A stretch of DNA of 64,000 nt from an uncultured Coriobacteriaceae bacterium (GTDB lineage Bacteria > Actinomycetota > Coriobacteriia > Coriobacteriales > Atopobiaceae): positions 1 to 64,000 of the forward strand of contig CADBYM010000006.1 of the NCBI GenBank assembly GCA_902798915.1, read 5' to 3'. This document shows positions 1,584-12,328 of the stretch, piece after piece. The translations under genes and the position numbers were made by a program. The notes beneath the pieces are model-generated. The model saw only the letters and a list, made by a program, of their open reading frames with translations. It was not told where the DNA came from and searched no databases. Each line of letters opens with the position of its first letter. Within the stretch, counting starts at the first letter, position 1.

Positions 1584-1617
1584 CAGCCCACCAACCTTCG
1601 ATGAGGTTAGTGGGCTG
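1584..1617. terminator. Hairpin between convergent genes
   Basis: CAGCCCACCAACCT pairs with AGGTTAGTGGGCTG with one mismatch across a 6-base loop. It sits between the plus-strand Zn-ribbon gene and the minus-strand RloC-like gene. There is no T-run on either side, so a bidirectional intrinsic terminator is possible but weakly supported. The rest of 1388-1666 shows no convincing gene. Confidence 0.35.
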
Positions 1618-1666: not shown

Positions 1667-3859
1667 CTACGGTGCCATGGCGGCATAGCGTCCAATCATG
1701 TCTTCGTAGTGCTGTATGTAACCAGCGCTTTCAAATATGGTTTTCAGTACCCTTCTGTAGACATCAATGCTCTCACCAGTGTTTTGGAAGGTCTCATCGT
1801 CAAAGGGACTGTGAGATCCCGCGTTAGCCCATGCCAGGTACGACCGCGCAATCTCACGGTCCGGGCTTGCCATGCTGGTGATGACGCCGTCGAGGTCAGG
1901 GTCCCCAATGAGCTTGAAGAAGGTTTCTGTTATGCGTCTGGCGATATTCTGAGCGGTTAGGGGATTGCAATCTTCACGGAGAAAATCTTTCCAAAGAAGC
2001 TCGTAAGTGCTGATTACCGGGTTCTTTTCGCAATGTTCAACAACCGAATGATCCCCGCTCTTGCGAACCAGATAATACGATGTTACTGAATTGCCTTCCT
2101 TTTTGCGCACATAGGTGACCTCACGATGGAACGTTATGTTGTGTGTGAGAACGATTAATTGCTCGGTATTCCCGTTGCCGTCACGCGCCTCTTTTGCAAG
2201 CTGGCGCACGAGCGAACTCGTTACGAAAAGCACGTCCGCATCCATACTCGTGATAGGGTCGTCGACAACTACTACGCGCCTATCGGTGGTGCCGCTGCTT
2301 TCGAGGCTGCCATTCATGAGGTAGTAGAAGTACAGGAACGTCAGGAAGCTGGCCTCACCCTCGCTGAGCGTGTCCTCGACAGGAGTCCCGTCCTTCCTCT
2401 CGATCCGATAGGATTTATCGTCCTCGGCAACCACGATCTTGAAACTCGTAAAGCCAAACCTACCGAGAAGCACGTTGATGGCATCGGCGGTTTCTTTCAC
2501 ATTCGTGAGGCCGGCTTCCGCCTTTCGTAGCTCTTCTGTGTTCTGCCTGATTCTGCCGTCGATTTTGCTGATGCTGTTTGTCAGTCCGGCGATCTTGTTG
2601 TTCGCTGTGGTCTCGTTTTTCTGTAGTGGAATAACGCTCGGCCGAGCAGCAATCGCCGCATATCGCCAAAGGTCAGCTACAACATCTGCTTTCTGCTCGG
2701 CACGATGCTGAATCATGTCGTTGTGGTTGCTTATTGCTATTGTAGCGTTATCGAGCAACTGTTGTATTGCATCGCAGATGCCCTTGGCGCTAACAAGGGT
2801 TACTGTGCGACTCGGTTCGTTCTGCTTTTGGTGCAGCAGGGCATTGTTGCTCTTAACGTTGCTATCAAGCTCCGCTATTCGTGCTTCCAGAGAGGGGACG
2901 TCCAGGAAATCTGCATGTGTCGTGAGAATCCCTTTGAGAACGGCAATGATGCCGTCGGCCTCATCTGCGTAACTCTGGGCTGCAGCCTTGAGGTCATCCT
3001 TGTCCTTTTGATATGTTTCGTCGAAGAATGACTCGAAGTCAGCCTTGAGCTTGTCCGTTATCGTGTGTTCCTGGCAGAAGGGGCATACGTCGCCCTCGAT
3101 GTACTTTTGGCCCTGCTCAACCCAGTCGCTTATGCCAAGCCTTGTTATGAGGGCGGCGATGGGGATGTCTTCTTTGCCGACGATAGCCTTGCCGAAAATA
3201 TCTGCACCTTCACAGATAATGAGCCTCTGGAAGTCAATCTGCGGGAGGCCGCTCGCGGTAGTCACGGTGTCGTCAAAAACGATAGCAGCGCGCTTCTCGA
3301 TTTCAGCCATATCAGGTTTGGCGTCATCGTCTTTGACAGCGGCAACATGTTCGAGCAGGCCATCTTTGAATCGCGCCTTTGTGTTGTGTCCCGGCATCTG
3401 TTTCTGAAGTTCTGCCGGTATGGCACTTTTTGTGCTCCAGCAAGCTTCGACGATTTGGGTCTGGGCAGCTTGAAGCTCAGTCCTTGCTTGCTCCAAGTTG
3501 CCCTGTGCGGCTTCCTTCTTGCCCTTGTCCCTTTCGATGGTCTCGGTTAGCTCATCAATCTTCCTCTGGGCGTCAACCATCCCTTTGCCCATGGTGAACA
3601 CGCCGGGCACGGAGGCTTTGTTGGCGAAGTTCGCCGTTATGAAGTTTCGGTTATACACGTACACCCGAACTGGGTTGCCACCATCCCACTGAATTGCGCT
3701 CGAATCGGGCAAGGAGGACTCGTCGGCTATAAGCTGGCTTATTGTCGTCTTGCCTGATCCGTTTGGCCCGAAGAAAAAGCATACACGGTCGAGACCATCA
3801 ATCTTTACTTGTTCGTGACCGAAGGGCGTTCTTAATGGCAGTCGTATGCTTGTAATCAT
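1667..3859 (-). CDS. RloC/PrrC-like AAA_13 ATPase, putative anticodon nuclease
   Basis: 730 residues. An SMC/Rad50-like ABC ATPase: Walker A GPNGSGKTT at residues 31-39, a long central coiled coil, a CPFC zinc-hook motif at about 259-262 and Walker B VVVVDDPITSMD near 532. This is the architecture of RloC, a translation-blocking tRNA anticodon nuclease with a Rad50-like Zn-hook, and its relative PrrC (family AAA_13). The C-terminal part contains R641-x3-E645 and H683 (ARRITETFF ... GSHS), resembling the Arg-Glu-His catalytic set described for PrrC/RloC, although the Glu-His spacing is a little longer. It is the last gene of a four-gene operon, 31 bases after the methylase/nuclease gene. PrrC is known to be silenced by a type I restriction enzyme and to act when that is inhibited, so a back-up role here is plausible. 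The nuclease assignment is inferred; the ATPase family is clear. Confidence 0.85.
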   Translation of the reverse strand: MITSIRLPLRTPFGHEQVKIDGLDRVCFFFGPNGSGKTTISQLIADESSLPDSSAIQWDGGNPVRVYVYNRNFITANFANKASVPGVFTMGKGMVDAQRKIDELTETIERDKGKKEAAQGNLEQARTELQAAQTQIVEACWSTKSAIPAELQKQMPGHNTKARFKDGLLEHVAAVKDDDAKPDMAEIEKRAAIVFDDTVTTASGLPQIDFQRLIICEGADIFGKAIVGKEDIPIAALITRLGISDWVEQGQKYIEGDVCPFCQEHTITDKLKADFESFFDETYQKDKDDLKAAAQSYADEADGIIAVLKGILTTHADFLDVPSLEARIAELDSNVKSNNALLHQKQNEPSRTVTLVSAKGICDAIQQLLDNATIAISNHNDMIQHRAEQKADVVADLWRYAAIAARPSVIPLQKNETTANNKIAGLTNSISKIDGRIRQNTEELRKAEAGLTNVKETADAINVLLGRFGFTSFKIVVAEDDKSYRIERKDGTPVEDTLSEGEASFLTFLYFYYLMNGSLESSGTTDRRVVVVDDPITSMDADVLFVTSSLVRQLAKEARDGNGNTEQLIVLTHNITFHREVTYVRKKEGNSVTSYYLVRKSGDHSVVEHCEKNPVISTYELLWKDFLREDCNPLTAQNIARRITETFFKLIGDPDLDGVITSMASPDREIARSYLAWANAGSHSPFDDETFQNTGESIDVYRRVLKTIFESAGYIQHYEDMIGRYAAMAP

Positions 3860-3890
3860 CGTTCATCCTGTAGCGTTCGATCATCCCGCA

Positions 3891-6800
3891 TTAAATAGCC
3901 TCCAGACATGCCGCATTAAGACGTTCGAATTCCGGAAGTGCCCTGTAGAACTGCTGGAATCTTCTCCGGCGACTGCTAAGCGCGCCGTTTGCCGGGTTCA
4001 GGTAGGAGGCAAGACGTTGATCCTCGGTGCAAGCCCTCTTGATTCTGGCCTGTAGCAGCTTCGTTGCTTCTACGACTCTTGTGTGCCTTTCGTCATTCGG
4101 GTCGTATTCGCTAATTAGGCTGAGGGGCAAGGTGTGGATGTGGCGCTTCCCAAAGTTGCCCTCGGGTTGGAATTCCTTTATCGCGTCGTTTATCGCATCG
4201 CTATTGAGGAGGCCAACGTAGTAGAGCGCTTCGTCTTCGCTGTCCGCACCACGCCAGTAGAGGGTCTGGTCAATGGCCAGCTTATGCGGCTGGCTGATTT
4301 CGTCGCAATTAATTGCCGATGCGCTTATGTTGCTTCCGCCGGCACCATACAAAACACGCCATTTCGAGGTGTCGTGCAGTGTATGCGAAAGCTTGCTTCT
4401 CGTGTCTAGATAGGCGAGATAGCCGCCCTTTTCCTGGTAAAACTCAACGCCGCCCTCGGCACAGTGCTTGACCTTATCAGCAAGCACCTTGTTGCTTCTC
4501 CCAAGTAAGGCGAGGTCTCGATCTATTAGCTCGACGGCGCCTTGTCCGGGGACATACTTCACAGGCAGGAAAGCCCTAACTGGATGGACCGGCGCAAAGG
4601 GCATGACCTGGTTGGAAGTGACCATATCGTATAGCAAGCTGCCGTCAATATTCGTAACGGTACCAACGCTAAAGGTCTTACACTTCTTACCGTCCTTTAC
4701 GGCGAAAGACAGCGGATCACCATTCGTCGGTATTGAGCTAACTGTCCATAGTCGATTTGGTTGTTGTTCACATTTGAAGACAACCGCCGTTCTCGGCATG
4801 CCATCGAAGCCTTGATTGAAGTTGACGGTATCAAGCGCCTTCTCGACGCTTTGGGTGTTGTAAGAAAAGGCCGTCGCCTTTCCATTGGTGATCAATTTGT
4901 ACGTGACCCGTGTTCCCTCGAGGTTGCCGTCGAACACAACACCTGCCACTTCTCTGCTTGCGGAGTCAGTGTGCTCCTTCTTGGCGAAAATGACCGCTGC
5001 GCGGTTGTTGAAGGCCTCTTTAGGCAGCTCCCAGATTTCGGTGAGCTTGAATTCAGTTGATAGCCCCGAACGAAGATAACCACCTGTCCTAAAAGGCTCC
5101 TCATGCCTGCCGTTAAGCATGGAGTGAGGCATGATGCATGCTATTACCCCGCCATCCGAGACGTAGCGCCGTATTGACGCAACGAGGAATATGGTCGCGA
5201 GCTCAACGTGTGGAAAGGAGCTGCCGCGTGGCATGATGCCATGTGAGTTTGCGAGTTTCACAAGCGCGTCATGATAGGGGTTTCCACGCAGCCTGCTGAG
5301 TGCGAGCCATGGCGGATTGGATACGATTCCATTGAAGAACTCCGTGGCGAATGCAGGCTTGAAGGAGTTGCTCAAAACAAAAGGCCAGATGCCGTTCCTG
5401 TCACGGCTACGCAAGTCGCTCAGCACTTCGATGAGGTCCGCAAATGCTGACGTAGCAGCACGATTACTGCTTTCATCGAGTTCGATGCCCATGCGCGTCA
5501 CCAGGTCGGAGAACAGCCTATCGGTCGTCTCGTCATCAACATCAACCCCATCAGTGGCGTAGTCTGCGGCGATGACATCGGCTTTGACCATCATCTCGTC
5601 AAACAGTTGCCTGTATGGTCTGCTAATGAGGAATTGTGGGATCGATATCGTTCTGTCATGTAGATGTGCGACGAGTTCGTTGCCGCCAATGGCGTCATGC
5701 GTACTCACGGGCGTACGCGTGAATAGGGAGTCTGCGTGATACACAGGGATATGCACAGATCCAGTGAAGAAACCCAGGTACTTCTTCATGACGAGCACCC
5801 AGTTGACTTTCGATAGGATGACGGCGAGTGGATCGACATCGAAACCGTAGATTGACTCGCTTAGCATTGCAATCTCGTCGTCTCCCAAGCTCGTCGGGTT
5901 GCCCATTCCCTCGATGAGCTGGGAAAGCGTCTCGACAATAAAGATGCCCGAACCACAGCACATATCCACGAGATGTGGCTTACACCCTTCGAGATCCCTA
6001 ATCGCCTTTCTCACCATTTTTGCCGCTATGGGTTGCGGGGTGGGCGCCTGCCCGAGCAGGATTTTCTTGTCGATTCCCGCCATCTGTGAGATAAGCCCGC
6101 CAAACAGGTCCGTTGTTGCCACGTTCGCGAAATCGTAGACCATGAGGTCGCGCTGCAGCTCTATAGCGCAATCGACAAGTTCATCGATATAAGGTTCGGC
6201 ATTGAGCCAGCCGAAATAGTCATATTCAACAAGGTTTTCGATCCCCAGGGTCACGAAGTAAGTACCATCGAGGATGTCTCGGATTTGCTCAGAGCTTCTC
6301 TCGGGCGCGCTGCCATCAAGTATGTTTGCCGCTATGAGCTTTGCAAGAGTGATGATGTACAGCTCATGCGAGTAGTCCTCGGTGAATCCCGAGCCTGCCC
6401 CGGTAACTCCTTCAACGAAATTCGACCAGAGGCCCTCTACGAGCCTGGCATATCCCGGATTCTTTTCACAGGCATCAATGACTAAATCGCGTATTGTATT
6501 CGTCCTGACCTTAGTGCTTCCGCTGTACAGGCCGAAATCGGACACGAGCGCTTTCGGGGTGAGCTGTTTCGAGCCAATGCGTCCGTAGTACTTGTTGATA
6601 AACCTCTCGAATCTTCCCAGGTTCTCATCGGATGTGTCGGTCATGTCGAGCCGGTCGATCTCGCAAAGCTCCAGGTCGTCTCGTCCCCACAGGCCGTTTT
6701 CGGCCATAGGCCTACCATCGTATTCGATGTCAACTCGGTATGCGTACCAATGCACCGTGTCGGAGAGGATGCCAACGATGTTGTCGCGATCGACGTTTTT

Positions 6801-7160
6801 GTTAAGGAGTCCTGCACAATAGTCTTCGACCTGCTCGTATCCGTGGTCGAATATGGCACCCTGAGTTAGGTTCTTTTCGTACTCGACAGCGGTGTGCCCA
6901 ATCAGAACGTCCGCAAACCCGCTTCTTCGCGTATTGTCAACGCTGTACGTTTCGTTTGCTTCGGCTTTTCTGGCGTGCTCGTCAATCCACCATGGCTTAC
7001 TGGGGAACATCATCGGCAGTCGCGTACAGAAAAGGTAGCGCAGAGGGTCTTCCTTTGAATTGTCCTGTATGTCACGCCCTGCCTGCGTGAAGAAGTCCCT
7101 GGCGGCTTCGTAGTCTAGCTCCGCGCGTAGCTCGTAGTCTTCCATATCCATATTCGTCAC
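3891..7160 (-). CDS. Large nuclease-like/N6-adenine methylase fusion (type IIG or PglX-like)
   Basis: 1089 residues. The N-terminal ~250 residues include FADVLIGHTAVEYEKN near residue 80, then GYEQVEDYCAGLL and a short strand ending in WYAYRVD; this looks like a PD-(D/E)xK-type restriction endonuclease fold with E-Y-E in the position of E-x-K. The methylase core has motif I DMCCGSGIFI near 400 and motif IV VSNPPW near 614, typical of gamma-class N6-adenine methylases. The C-terminal third resembles a target-recognition domain. The size fits type IIG restriction-modification enzymes or BREX PglX, but no other BREX gene is adjacent. It overlaps the upstream methylase by 4 bases (7157-7160), so translation is probably coupled. 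Whether it cuts DNA cannot be read from sequence alone. Confidence 0.8.
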   Translation of the reverse strand: MTNMDMEDYELRAELDYEAARDFFTQAGRDIQDNSKEDPLRYLFCTRLPMMFPSKPWWIDEHARKAEANETYSVDNTRRSGFADVLIGHTAVEYEKNLTQGAIFDHGYEQVEDYCAGLLNKNVDRDNIVGILSDTVHWYAYRVDIEYDGRPMAENGLWGRDDLELCEIDRLDMTDTSDENLGRFERFINKYYGRIGSKQLTPKALVSDFGLYSGSTKVRTNTIRDLVIDACEKNPGYARLVEGLWSNFVEGVTGAGSGFTEDYSHELYIITLAKLIAANILDGSAPERSSEQIRDILDGTYFVTLGIENLVEYDYFGWLNAEPYIDELVDCAIELQRDLMVYDFANVATTDLFGGLISQMAGIDKKILLGQAPTPQPIAAKMVRKAIRDLEGCKPHLVDMCCGSGIFIVETLSQLIEGMGNPTSLGDDEIAMLSESIYGFDVDPLAVILSKVNWVLVMKKYLGFFTGSVHIPVYHADSLFTRTPVSTHDAIGGNELVAHLHDRTISIPQFLISRPYRQLFDEMMVKADVIAADYATDGVDVDDETTDRLFSDLVTRMGIELDESSNRAATSAFADLIEVLSDLRSRDRNGIWPFVLSNSFKPAFATEFFNGIVSNPPWLALSRLRGNPYHDALVKLANSHGIMPRGSSFPHVELATIFLVASIRRYVSDGGVIACIMPHSMLNGRHEEPFRTGGYLRSGLSTEFKLTEIWELPKEAFNNRAAVIFAKKEHTDSASREVAGVVFDGNLEGTRVTYKLITNGKATAFSYNTQSVEKALDTVNFNQGFDGMPRTAVVFKCEQQPNRLWTVSSIPTNGDPLSFAVKDGKKCKTFSVGTVTNIDGSLLYDMVTSNQVMPFAPVHPVRAFLPVKYVPGQGAVELIDRDLALLGRSNKVLADKVKHCAEGGVEFYQEKGGYLAYLDTRSKLSHTLHDTSKWRVLYGAGGSNISASAINCDEISQPHKLAIDQTLYWRGADSEDEALYYVGLLNSDAINDAIKEFQPEGNFGKRHIHTLPLSLISEYDPNDERHTRVVEATKLLQARIKRACTEDQRLASYLNPANGALSSRRRRFQQFYRALPEFERLNAACLEAI

Positions 7161-8998
7161 TCGCTCCTTAGTTTAAGCCTAATGTCGAGCTCATCCCTCC
7201 AACGCGCTAACAGTTCGTCAGCTCGTTCGCTTCCGGCTATCGCCTTCGAAATTACGTTGTCGACACTGTTCTGGGTCGCAGCCGCCTCATTGATGGATCT
7301 TGCATCGGCGAGCTCGGCCCCGTACCGGCTCAGCGCTTCTCTCAGTTCGCCCTTTGGTCCGGGAAGCTCCAACTTGCGCAACGATACGGCCTCGCATTTC
7401 AGAGCGCCGCCGCCCAACACGCTGCAATTTCGCTCCAGCTCGAGCCTGACGTAGGTCGAGTTCAGCAGCGCAAGCGCAGCATGTGATGCCTTCAGATTCG
7501 TGTCATTAACCCAAATTGTGGAGAAGTTGGCGTCTGCCACGATACGTCTGTCGCCAACGAGTTGGTAGGCCCGTACGACGCCGCCGTTGATGCGTGGGAT
7601 CACAAGGTTTGGCAAATGCCTGTCCTTGAGCGCAGGCAGCATGTACCAGTACCGGTCTTTGCCAGGCACGCTGCTGAGAGGCCCGTTTGTCCGAACAGCA
7701 GAAAGGCTCGGTATATGCTGGCGCCGTCCATTCTGGATAACTTCATGTTCCTCGCAATAGCTGATGTATTGCCTCAGGCTCATCAATTCCCGTTCCGGAA
7801 TGACGGAGCTGTCTTCGATTGGCCTGTCGATGAACAGAAGCCGGTATCCAGTCTTTCGCGTCGCGATGGTGTACGCATCTTCGATTTCGTCCTGGTAGCG
7901 CAGCGCAGGCAAAAGAGGCAGACAGCACGCGTTGGCGGGTTCCAATCTGGCGCAATCCGCCCAGATGTCATTGCTGGCCCGTCCGTCTCCGTCCTCCGTC
8001 AGATAGAAGAACCCGTTGGCACCGGTTCGCAGCCCTTGCCCAACGTTAAGCCCCCAGTCGCCAAGCGTGGCCGTTCTACATTCGATATGCACGCGCGATG
8101 CATGATTGACACAACTAAGGTCTTCGTGTCGTGCCCAAACTTGGCCGTCTGAATAGTCCGCTCCGCTTTGGCATAGACTGGTAAACGCCTCGTCGCCGGT
8201 CCGTCCGTCGTATGTTAATACGCCTGCTAAAGAGCGTGTGTTGGCCGCCCACTTCGACAGGCCTATGTGGTGCACGTGCGTGTTATCCGGCTTCGTGTCC
8301 TTGCCGTCGCGCTTGGTGGCAATCAGGAGGTTTGTCTTGACCTGAGCGTCCTGGAACCACGTACGGCTTTCGTCGACGATAATCCGGTCGACCGTGAAAT
8401 CAGCGTTCAGAATGTCATAGATAACGCTGGCGTACTCTCTTTTCAGCCAAGCATCGGGCAGCACCATTGCCAACTTGCCGCCGGGCTTAACTAGGCAGGC
8501 GCAAAGAATCCAGCAAGGCACTGCAAGGTCGGATAGCCCCGAGTACGATTTGGCTCCTTCGAGATACGGAAGTTTTGAACCTGAGATATTGAGCACCTCA
8601 ATGGTTCCGATGAGGCGCTCGCGTATCGCCTCAACTGCGTTCTTGCCGTAAAGAGCGTCGAGGCCCTGATATCTGACATACGGAGGATTCGTTATGACCA
8701 GGTCCCATTCTTGCTTGTTGTAAAGATCGGTAGCCGCCTTGCTCAATGCGTCGCACTTAAGGAAATGACTGCATTCTAGCCTTGACATTGCAGCTTCAAC
8801 TGCCTCGCCATCAATATCGATGCCGTAAAGCCTTTCTTCATGCGCTCCGCGACCCTGCAGGGCTATGAGCATGTCTGCCTGGCCGACCATCGGGTCGATG
8901 GCGTGAATCGAATCGATATCAGCGAGATCTGCGGCGAGTACAAGAAGGTTGGCTACTTTGGGACCAGAGAAGAACTGACCGATTTCCTTATTGCTCAT
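7157..8998 (-). CDS. Gamma-class N6-adenine DNA methyltransferase
   Basis: 613 residues, M.TaqI/Eco57I-like. A degenerate motif I (DPMVGQADML, about residue 36) is followed by an acidic strand (GIDIDGEA) and the catalytic motif ITNPPYVRYQ near residue 102. The C-terminal half contains GLRTGANGFFYL near 321, a sequence style typical of target-recognition domains of this class. Product would be N6-methyladenine in duplex DNA. It overlaps the preceding methylase gene by 4 bases and the following one by 4 bases. The weak motif I (no FxGxG) is unusual and might mean this subunit needs a partner. Confidence 0.85.
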   Translation of the reverse strand: MSNKEIGQFFSGPKVANLLVLAADLADIDSIHAIDPMVGQADMLIALQGRGAHEERLYGIDIDGEAVEAAMSRLECSHFLKCDALSKAATDLYNKQEWDLVITNPPYVRYQGLDALYGKNAVEAIRERLIGTIEVLNISGSKLPYLEGAKSYSGLSDLAVPCWILCACLVKPGGKLAMVLPDAWLKREYASVIYDILNADFTVDRIIVDESRTWFQDAQVKTNLLIATKRDGKDTKPDNTHVHHIGLSKWAANTRSLAGVLTYDGRTGDEAFTSLCQSGADYSDGQVWARHEDLSCVNHASRVHIECRTATLGDWGLNVGQGLRTGANGFFYLTEDGDGRASNDIWADCARLEPANACCLPLLPALRYQDEIEDAYTIATRKTGYRLLFIDRPIEDSSVIPERELMSLRQYISYCEEHEVIQNGRRQHIPSLSAVRTNGPLSSVPGKDRYWYMLPALKDRHLPNLVIPRINGGVVRAYQLVGDRRIVADANFSTIWVNDTNLKASHAALALLNSTYVRLELERNCSVLGGGALKCEAVSLRKLELPGPKGELREALSRYGAELADARSINEAAATQNSVDNVISKAIAGSERADELLARWRDELDIRLKLRSE

Positions 8999-10794
8999 GT
9001 TATTGCCCCGGATGTCGCAAATTTCTCGTAGGCATCTCGGGCGTCAAGCTCCACGCGTATTCCGTTTTCGAGGCAGTGATTAACGTAAGCGGCATATGCT
9101 TCTCGCGGGCCGTTGGGTTGTGCGGGAGTGTCGAGTTCAGCCTCGCTTCCGATAGGTTTGCTTGGTTTGTGTTCAGTCTTGCCAAGCAGGATAAGAGAGT
9201 CACCTTTTACGCCACCTGAGGAGACCACCTGTTTGAAGCTCTCTTGGGACTTCGCGAGATGCGTGGTTGTAACCACGTCGAGCCCCGCGTCTTCTATTGC
9301 CGAAGCGAGAGCTTGCCACACGTCTGCTTTTGACGAGTGGAATACGAGCGTCATGAGTCCTTCGTCTTTGAGAACGCGCTTGGCTTCGGCCAGAGAAGTC
9401 ATGATCATGTGACCGTACGTATCAGCATCTTTGTCTTGTGAAGGGCTGATGATCGCTTCATCAGAGCGGTCAGTGGTCGCATCCAGCCACAGCTCGTTGA
9501 TTTGATTTACCTCAGCGTATGGGATGAAGTCGCCAAATGGCGGATCGGTGAAAACGTACGAGATTGTCCCGTCGCCCTCCCGTAGTCTACCGCTGCTTTG
9601 GTTGACTACATCGACATGCCCAGTACAGCCGTTTACGTACGAGAAGGCTCTTGCGAAGGGCTTTATCTTTCGCTGCAATCCCTTGAGGATGTTCTTTTCT
9701 ACGGGTAGGTTGCTAACGTAAAGCACACCACTTTGGGCGCCTGTCAGTACGAAATCTGACGAGTTGTGCTTGGCGACCACCCTCGTCATGAGCGTTGCGT
9801 GCGTAGCGTTGTAGCTGAGTATTAGGAGGCGTAGCGCGTCACGAATGTCTTTCTCGTAAGCTTCAGTCTTCTTCCATAGCGCCTCGATAATGAGAAAGTT
9901 GCGCTTCGTATAGAAGTGGTGCAGATGTGATATTCCCTTGTGATAACCGGCCCTGTGTAGCTCGCCCCATTCGATTGGCTGGGGCTTTGTATCCTCCGGA
10001 TAAGCAAGGGCTTCGATTCGGGCGACATCATCGAAATCTGCTGTATCAGCGACACGTCGCCAGTTTCTCCCAGCGGTCTCGCCGTAAACAAGAACCGGCA
10101 CCCTCCGACGGCTGCTTATGCTTTCGCCGAGCAAATCATCGTATTTCTCTTCCACCGAGAATGCGTTGTCGCCCGTCGATACGGCTGTGCCGCAGTGAGG
10201 ACAATTACCATTCGAATTGATTCTTAGAGGATCCCAGTTGACCATGCCTTCATAAAACGTGAAGTCACAGCCGCATTGCTGACAAGTGAGAACGCTTGAC
10301 CAGATTACATGACGAATGGTACCGATACGCCCTTGGTCATCTACGGCCTGGTACAGATCGCCAAGCTCGGCATTCACGTCTCGTAAGAGCTTTTCAGCCG
10401 CCTTGACGAAGAGGTTCGACGAGGGAGGGCAAGTCATAACGCGTGCTGCAAATGTGCCGTAAGTGCTTATGTCATAGAGTACGGCATTCCTTGGTCCCCA
10501 TTCGGGTTCTACGCCAAGCTTCTCTGCAATACTCAACATGCTTGGAGTAGGGTGCTCGCACATTTGGGCGGCCAGCCCAGTTGCACCGCTTCCCGAGAAT
10601 GAGTCGAGTACAGTATCGCCAGGATTGGTGTGCGCAGCGATGTAGACCGCAATCGATTCAGGGGCTATCTTGGTTGGATATGCGTAGGTATTGAAGAAGA
10701 CACCCGAGCGGAACGACGGCAGCGCACGCCGGTACAGTGTCGTTAGGTCGTTGTGCATGGCTCGGAAGTCACTCCAATCAAGTCGAATAGTCAC
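8995..10794 (-). CDS. Zn-ribbon-containing DNA methylase (COG1743-like)
   Basis: 599 residues. Motif I is DSFSGSGATG (about residues 63-72) and motif IV is FTDPPFGDF near residue 416, as in DNA amino-methyltransferases that use DPPF/DPPY. Between them two CxxC pairs (CQQC near 170, CPHC near 197) form a zinc ribbon, which matches the COG1743 adenine-specific methylases with Zn-ribbon. It is first in the four-gene operon. The start is uncertain: GTG at 10794 gives the full length, while an in-frame ATG at 10758 would still keep all motifs. Neither has a strong Shine-Dalgarno. The AT-rich stretch just upstream (10795-10830) is the likely promoter region; 10795-11020 otherwise holds no gene. Confidence 0.85.
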   Translation of the reverse strand: MTIRLDWSDFRAMHNDLTTLYRRALPSFRSGVFFNTYAYPTKIAPESIAVYIAAHTNPGDTVLDSFSGSGATGLAAQMCEHPTPSMLSIAEKLGVEPEWGPRNAVLYDISTYGTFAARVMTCPPSSNLFVKAAEKLLRDVNAELGDLYQAVDDQGRIGTIRHVIWSSVLTCQQCGCDFTFYEGMVNWDPLRINSNGNCPHCGTAVSTGDNAFSVEEKYDDLLGESISSRRRVPVLVYGETAGRNWRRVADTADFDDVARIEALAYPEDTKPQPIEWGELHRAGYHKGISHLHHFYTKRNFLIIEALWKKTEAYEKDIRDALRLLILSYNATHATLMTRVVAKHNSSDFVLTGAQSGVLYVSNLPVEKNILKGLQRKIKPFARAFSYVNGCTGHVDVVNQSSGRLREGDGTISYVFTDPPFGDFIPYAEVNQINELWLDATTDRSDEAIISPSQDKDADTYGHMIMTSLAEAKRVLKDEGLMTLVFHSSKADVWQALASAIEDAGLDVVTTTHLAKSQESFKQVVSSGGVKGDSLILLGKTEHKPSKPIGSEAELDTPAQPNGPREAYAAYVNHCLENGIRVELDARDAYEKFATSGAIT

Positions 10795-11020: not shown

Positions 11021-11281
11021 CTACTTGACCAGCTTGAAGCCAACCCTGCCGTCGGGGCCCGTGGCGTACACCCTCGTGGCCATCGCCGCGTTCATCTCCT
11101 CCAGGCTCTCCCACGCCCCGAAGGCCCACAGCAGGTCCTCCAGCATGGTCTGGTCGGAGGGGACGAGATCGGGGTCGACGCCGTCGAGCATCTGGCCCAG
11201 GGTCATGGTGCCGAGCCCCTCGCAGTGGTAGACGGTGTCCAGGTCGGGGAGCTTGAAGGCTGTGGCGGTCGCGGTGCTCAT
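11021..11281 (-). CDS. Small protein downstream of portal remnant
   Basis: 86 residues, starting MSTATATAFKLPD, with a good ribosome site (GAGGA five bases before the ATG). It follows the portal-protein remnant on the same strand by 12 bases, which suggests it belonged to the same phage module. Composition is acidic with a central helical segment (MLEDLLWAFGAWESLEEMN). I do not recognise the family; it may be a phage morphogenesis or accessory protein that has survived intact. Confidence 0.55.
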   Translation of the reverse strand: MSTATATAFKLPDLDTVYHCEGLGTMTLGQMLDGVDPDLVPSDQTMLEDLLWAFGAWESLEEMNAAMATRVYATGPDGRVGFKLVK

Positions 11282-11776: not shown

Positions 11777-12328
11777 ATGTACATTAACGATAACGCTCTT
11801 AAATGGTACGAATACGCCCTTAGGACTGGCGATGACTCGGTTGCCAGATTCATGATGAATTGGATCGCCTTCAACTTCATGTACGGCGAGTACCGTAAAA
11901 AGGACGATGAAGGTGAGTGGAATTCTGAGAGGGAGCGTATATCTCTACTCTGTCATGACAAGTATCGCGATCTCACAATATACAACCCGTTCGTCGAAGA
12001 CCGCGAAGCCACAGAAACACTCATCGAGCTTCCCGTCGTAAAGGGGAAACGTTTTCCGGAATGGCGAGGGGGGCCACACTTGCCATATGACCGTACTAAG
12101 AAGCCCTATGAGATGACACCAGCCGAGCTCTGGGGGGTGACTAGCTTGGGCAGTGGGCTCAAGCGGGTTGAGTGTCTCCTTCTAACTCTGTACCAAGTGC
12201 GCTGTAACCTATTTCATGGTTCAAAAGACCCCACCTTCATACGTGATCTCGAGTTAGTAGAGTCGGCGGGGATAGTCTTGGAAGGCTACATGAAAGCGTT
12301 GCTACACATAGACTCTTCTCCCCGTTAG
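11777..12328 (+). CDS. HEPN-domain protein (putative RNase)
   Basis: 183 residues, all helical in appearance. The C-terminal half carries R142-C-N-L-F-H147 within VRCNLFHGSKDP, exactly the RX4H motif of HEPN domains, which in many toxins and defence proteins is the metal-independent RNase active site. A purine-rich site (GGAAAGAAG) precedes the ATG. The gene is on the opposite strand to, and lies exactly between, the large-terminase and portal remnants, and its stop codon abuts the terminase remnant. No antitoxin (such as MNT) is adjacent. RNase activity and a defence role are inferences from the motif. Confidence 0.7.
   Translation: MYINDNALKWYEYALRTGDDSVARFMMNWIAFNFMYGEYRKKDDEGEWNSERERISLLCHDKYRDLTIYNPFVEDREATETLIELPVVKGKRFPEWRGGPHLPYDRTKKPYEMTPAELWGVTSLGSGLKRVECLLLTLYQVRCNLFHGSKDPTFIRDLELVESAGIVLEGYMKALLHIDSSPR

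Follow-up and report, generated by a model that had tools for sequence, protein, structure and literature searches.

For the anticodon nuclease PrrC, the accepted model is an abortive second line of defence beside a restriction-modification (R-M) system; such a role has been proposed for RloC. RloC proteins are defined as 658-897 amino acids (aa) long, with ATP-binding cassette (ABC) motifs, a coiled-coil insert carrying a CXXC zinc hook, and a C-terminal R-X3-E-X36-52-H triad in which Ser often precedes the His (PMC2610378, Davidov and Kaufmann 2008). RloC genes have been reported within R-M operons or close to them (PMC3710099), and RloC is described as self-regulated through its own ATPase and zinc hook and as often unlinked to R-M genes (PMC2610378, PMC3710099). 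Among Type IIG R-M systems, BseRI comprises a restriction-methyltransferase (RM) protein and an N4-methylcytosine methyltransferase fused to a gamma-class methyltransferase, and BpuSI an RM protein and two separate companions (PMC3874165); the companions of BpuSI, not its RM enzyme, give most of the protection, and a stable system requires the two of them (PMC3817140). Here we describe a four-gene operon at positions 1667-10794 of a 64,000-nucleotide stretch of DNA (hereafter the window) from an uncultured Coriobacteriaceae bacterium (GenBank assembly GCA_902798915.1, contig CADBYM010000006.1, positions 1 to 64,000), which is the left end of a 144,708-bp contig in a 3.99 Mb genome. We conclude, with a probability of about 0.78, that it is a BseRI/BpuSI-like Type IIG R-M operon, horizontally acquired, with RloC as an exchangeable second-line abortive effector. 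It is a combination of known parts and not a new class of defence; all of the parts and both pairings (a Type IIG enzyme with companions, RloC with R-M systems) are published. The genes lie on the minus strand in the order A, B, C, D:

8995-10794, minus strand: gene A, a 599-aa DNA methyltransferase of the COG1743/PglXI type, permuted beta-like (PF01555; PADLOC PglXI, 367 bits)
7157-8998, minus strand: gene B, a 613-aa gamma-class N6-adenine methyltransferase of the Eco57I/N6 type (PF07669/PF02384)
3891-7160, minus strand: gene C, a 1089-aa Type IIG-like restriction-methyltransferase with an N6 methylase (PADLOC REase_MTase_IIG, 154 bits)
1667-3859, minus strand: gene D, a 730-aa RloC (AAA_13, 481.6 bits; PADLOC PDC-S06 (PDLC04890), 731.6 bits)

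All four open reading frames were confirmed in the window, as were the 4-bp overlaps between A and B (8995-8998, ATGA) and between B and C (7157-7160, GTGA) and the 31-bp gap between C and D (3860-3890). An initial annotation, made from the DNA letters, had reported this four-gene arrangement correctly, and the domain and PADLOC matches agree with it that HsdS/HsdR, BREX and DISARM partners are lacking. It erred in implying that the operon has no restriction enzyme and that the set is not an already named system: C has the features of a Type IIG restriction-methylase, and the core matches the published organisation of Type IIG R-M with companion methylases. GC content is 0.52-0.56 in the operon genes and 0.59 in the remaining window, which agrees with a horizontal origin of the operon.

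Gene C joins in one chain an N-terminal PD-(D/E)xK-like nuclease (E67, D84, E93-Y-E95, Q110), a gamma-class methylase (D399MCCGSG, N615PPW) and a C-terminal target-recognition region. At least 90% of 56 orthologues keep residues E37, E67, D84, E93, E95 and Q110 as well as DMCCGSG and NPPW; across 28-29 aligned orthologues the nuclease residues do not vary. An AlphaFold2 model of C (pLDDT 84.6) matched DrdV, MmeI, BpuSI (3s1s), BrxX and M.BseCI in the PDB; rows from annotated plasmid records were excluded from the alignments used for structure prediction. Searches of the PDB with the single sequences of C, D and a phospholipase D (PLD) nuclease found at related loci (see below) gave no match, and profile searches gave weak but sensible ones, of C to RM.BsaXI and BrxX and of D to the Rad50 hook and AriA. 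On the strength of the Type IIG model scores, the invariant nuclease and methylase motifs and the Type IIG/BrxX-like predicted fold, C is the Type IIG restriction enzyme of the operon, its cleavage activity, which in a Type IIG enzyme would lie close to the site and be stimulated by AdoMet, being predicted. Solitary Type IIG relatives of C share 22-26% identity with it, and one of them is annotated as BseRI. In a Parabacteroides operon (L082, 13601-13810) C is cut down to approximately its first 67 residues, with A and B intact.

Genes A and B are predicted to encode the companion methylases of C. Gene A contains motif I (D64-SFSGSG), motif IV (D417PPF) and a four-cysteine zinc ribbon (C171/C174/C198/C201), and at least 90% of 74 orthologues keep these motifs and cysteines; it is predicted to be of the amino-methylase type, with adenine or cytosine as its target. 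Gene B contains D35PMVGQAD and N104PPY, the latter shared by at least 90% of 76 orthologues. At a locus in a metagenome-assembled genome (MAG) of BRC1 (L045, 9959-13933), A and B form one in-frame protein of 1324 aa (A part 17-617, B part 629-1323), and C begins 1 nucleotide after it. The operon is like BseRI (GAGGAG 10/8) in having a nuclease-methylase fusion and two predicted companion methylase activities, with the A-B fusion of L045 in the order of M.BseRI; it differs in that A and B of the window are separate, overlapping genes and in that A is a zinc-ribbon COG1743 protein with DPPF. The likeness to BpuSI (GGGAC 10/14; RM, M1 and M2) lies in the two separate companions and in the match of the predicted fold of C to 3s1s, whereas one BpuSI companion is a 5-methylcytosine methylase, A being of the amino-methylase type, and the BpuSI nuclease domain is FokI-like.

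The distribution of A, B and C was examined in a scan of 84,980 genomes for which an alignment of A served as the query and which gave 378 confirmed relatives; the best 80 loci were kept, and 67 of these had at least 5.6 kb after A, enough flank for gene counts. A, B and C are encoded together at 52 of the 67, so that their order is not due to chance, and 19 of these 52 also carry a PLD nuclease. Eight of the 67 have A, B and the PLD nuclease without C, and seven have A and B without either; L058, in which C is divergently oriented, is counted apart or among the loci lacking both C and the PLD nuclease. Like the window, 33 loci carry C with no recognised alternative nuclease. The A-B-C set is spread over more than ten phyla, the record titles naming Actinobacteria, Bacillota, Bacteroidota, Alpha-, Beta- and Gammaproteobacteria, Desulfobacterota, Chloroflexi, Acidobacteria, Planctomycetota, Gemmatimonadota, Elusimicrobia, Nitrospinota, Lentisphaerae and others. 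The operons nearest to that of the window are those of two Adlercreutzia genomes and of a MAG titled Actinomycetes, all from the same order as the window. Pairwise distance matrices of A, B and C over 53 loci correlate at r = 0.95-0.97, a level reached by 0 of 2000 permutations (shared species history not removed), and from this we conclude that the three genes travel and evolve together. A small helix-turn-helix or ribbon-helix-helix regulator gene stands immediately upstream of A at 24 of the 80 loci; such small upstream genes are common in R-M systems. No gene family recurs at A-B-C loci other than those of A, B and C, the PLD nuclease and these regulators. No relative of A was confirmed in viral contigs, and phages gave one 20% match only. 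In a search of the open-access literature, no paper was found that treats A-B-C as a set of genes.

Gene D corresponds to RloC in every published sequence character: length, ABC motifs, zinc hook and nuclease triad. It contains a Rad50-like ABC ATPase with a zinc hook (Walker A GPNGSGKT at G31-T38, CPFC at 259-262, LSEGE at 498, Walker B VVVVDDP at 529, LTHN at 571) followed by a C-terminal PrrC/RloC-type HEPN anticodon-nuclease domain, in which the triad reads R641-X3-E645-X37-H683 with S682 before the His. The triad, Ser682, the zinc-hook cysteines and the Walker residues are invariant in 14 relatives, and the model of D shows a Rad50-like fold with long helices flanking the hook and a helical C-terminal domain. 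The RloC-like character that the initial annotation assigned to the last gene therefore stands, and anticodon-nuclease activity on tRNA, which for an RloC would include excision of the wobble nucleotide, is predicted from these features. The genome holds no second AAA_13 gene. A phage 'RloC' annotation (Javan105) was dropped as a yardstick for the triad, its Glu and His positions being degenerate in the alignment. The PADLOC entry PDC-S06 matches D but is a single-gene candidate label rather than a tested mechanism. In its setting D differs from published RloC genes: it closes a Type IIG operon, whereas the RloC genes linked to R-M systems in PMC2610378 accompanied Type I or III. An anticodon nuclease gene also adjoins R-M genes in PrrC-EcoprrI, but PrrC is about half the size (approximately 341-416 aa), has no zinc hook and is tied to Type Ic HsdRMS; D, with 730 aa and CPFC in an operon without Hsd genes, was accordingly not assigned to PrrC.

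A consistent linkage of the last gene to the methylases, as initially proposed, was not borne out by the search for gene order. Apart from the window, only three of the 52 complete A-B-C loci, all from Coriobacteriia, have an RloC-like gene or its remnant directly 3' of C, and in two of the three it is broken. In genome G078 the slot 3' of C is filled by a member of another RloC subfamily (753 aa; PDLC04898, 676 bits; R655-X3-E659-X39-H699), and the nucleotide similarity between the window and G078 ends at the end of C. In one Adlercreutzia (G248; L030, 5068-6363) a wreck of D lacks residues 26-83, including Walker A, and is broken further on, with A-B-C intact and 75-88% identical at the protein level; in the other (G260; L031, 11338-12402) about 21 codons of D are left before an opposite-strand transposase gene, A-B-C again being intact. 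Elsewhere only two loci have an AAA_13 gene near A-B-C, upstream of it at L062 and downstream at L091; L065, L069 and L077 have weaker AAA_13-like ATPases, encoded on the opposite strand. The closest relatives of D (49%) adjoin a 5-methylcytosine-methylase-like gene and a 355-aa open reading frame; other relatives stand alone or beside Type I HsdMSR, PaeR7I-type or BsuBI/PstI-type R-M genes, and R-M genes lie within a few kb of the D relative at five of eight sampled plasmid loci. We reject a fixed A-B-C-D system on the basis of this genome survey, in which A-B-C mostly occurs without D, and the gene comparisons identify D as an exchangeable passenger that occupies an accessory slot downstream of C, where the operon ends.

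These observations suggest the following mechanism. C would recognise an asymmetric DNA site and cut unmodified phage or plasmid DNA nearby, and A and B would protect this site in the host DNA, each probably acting on one strand, as in BseRI and BpuSI, with the methylase domain of C itself probably contributing little to protection. D would stay silent until DNA damage or a failure of restriction engages its Rad50-like ATPase and zinc hook; once activated, it would cleave tRNA anticodons and bring translation to a halt, so that death or arrest of the infected cell precedes the release of phage. We favour the sensing of DNA damage by RloC over sensing of the state of this particular R-M system, because RloC pairs with unrelated R-M systems and its control by its own ATPase and zinc hook is published. 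The initial proposal that the RloC-like protein aborts translation thus survives in the form of a last resort, but the accompanying idea of methylases acting without a restriction enzyme in a new four-part system does not, C being the Type IIG enzyme and A and B its companions.

Several points weigh against the reading of the locus as a BseRI/BpuSI-like operon with RloC behind it. The motif of C, D84...E93-Y-E95-K96, is a conserved variant of the form D-x8-E-x-E-K and not the usual D-E-x-K, and its nuclease could be altered. E-x-K is usual in Type IIG enzymes, and BamHI is a known ExE enzyme; diverged solitary plasmid relatives of C have either E-x-K at the motif position or a shared E-W-E-K form. 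Motif I of gene B has A41 in contrast to the Gly of most orthologues, the link to BseRI is drawn from gene organisation, the C-terminal loop that holds H683 of D is modelled at low confidence, and D may simply be co-transcribed with A-B-C and not act with it. This last point bears on a true four-component system, in which the methylase/restriction complex would physically silence RloC and, once blocked by an anti-restriction protein of a phage, would free it, in the way that EcoprrI controls PrrC. The co-directional genes with their 31-bp C/D gap, the PrrC precedent (PMC2610378) and the occupation of the same slot by two different RloC subfamilies in related Coriobacteriia operons would suit such an arrangement, but almost all lineages have A-B-C without D, and the two Adlercreutzia have lost D with A-B-C intact. 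RloC is moreover published as self-regulated and often unlinked to R-M, and the pairing of D relatives with unrelated R-M types or with none makes a dedicated contact with C unlikely; we regard the four-component system as improbable.

A different relation between the genes is possible, though we hold it only tentatively: A-B may be a general modification module with an interchangeable restriction arm (the Type IIG C, the PLD nuclease or an McrBC-like pair), C then being perhaps partly redundant. This is compatible with the Type IIG reading, and is suggested by the 19 loci that have C together with a PLD/NgoFVII-like nuclease, by the eight full-flank loci with that nuclease and no C, by three actinobacteria with an McrB-like ATPase/McrC pair instead, and by a C-terminal domain common to the PLD nuclease and the McrB-like protein; against it, 33 loci and the window have C and no recognised alternative nuclease, which makes C the sole candidate in the window, and the domain match comes from small alignments. 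The most far-reaching reading, in which the Type IIG complex silences RloC until anti-restriction proteins block restriction (a PrrC-like alarm on a Type II system with an exchangeable RloC slot), or its more modest form, in which A-B is an unnamed and very widespread modification module serving three restriction arms that are unrelated but have a recognition domain in common, seems to us rather unlikely. Still further from our view, and very improbable, is a BREX- or Pgl-like defence in which the methylases mark DNA and exclusion is independent of the C nuclease; the 367-bit score of A to PADLOC PglXI and the resemblance of the methylase part of C to BrxX speak for it, but the nuclease motif of C is invariant, and neither PglZ nor BrxC is in the operon or represented by an extra family recurring at A-B-C loci. 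DISARM and MADS were rejected as well, the DrmABC or mad1-8 set being absent and the cross-matches being to generic methylases or ATPases.

With C read as a Type IIG enzyme, a three-methylase operon that appeared unexplained becomes a recognisable restriction system, for which a single asymmetric site of action, common to A, B and C, is predicted. The operon is also a natural example of RloC joined to a Type IIG system; in its neighbours the RloC gene has been exchanged, has decayed or has been cut short by an insertion sequence, and the sister operons, which have the same A-B-C and another D or none, offer a ready comparison for what RloC adds to restriction. What is added to the open-access literature is the combination itself and the wide, apparently undescribed spread of the A-B-C family.

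At related loci, a PLD nuclease of about 359 aa (HxK...SxN, NgoFVII-like) adjoins A-B at 28 loci, with or without C (L043, L057, L069, L077, L085, L101 and others). The McrB-like ATPase/McrC pair stands in its place in the three actinobacteria, and the C-terminal domain shared by the PLD nuclease and the McrB-like protein was matched by hhalign with a probability of 87% (E 4e-6; small alignments). Two further features border the operon in the window:

1584-1617, minus strand: terminator-like hairpin of 14 pairs with a T-containing tail, directly past D (1617-1584)
11021-11281, minus strand: 86-aa open reading frame upstream of A, kept in G078 (72% over 64 aa)

Terminator-like matches across the region are no commoner than in shuffled sequence, which leaves the hairpin past D only suggestive. 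The 86-aa open reading frame was not found at the Adlercreutzia loci and is possibly an extra upstream gene or a shared flank. Farther out, a 183-aa open reading frame on the plus strand (11777-12328) matched no family and contains a stretch, RCNLFHGSK, that resembles the HEPN R-x(4)-H motif. The uncharacterised phage family phrog_31650 is matched by a 327-aa open reading frame at 166-1149 on the plus strand, near the contig end.

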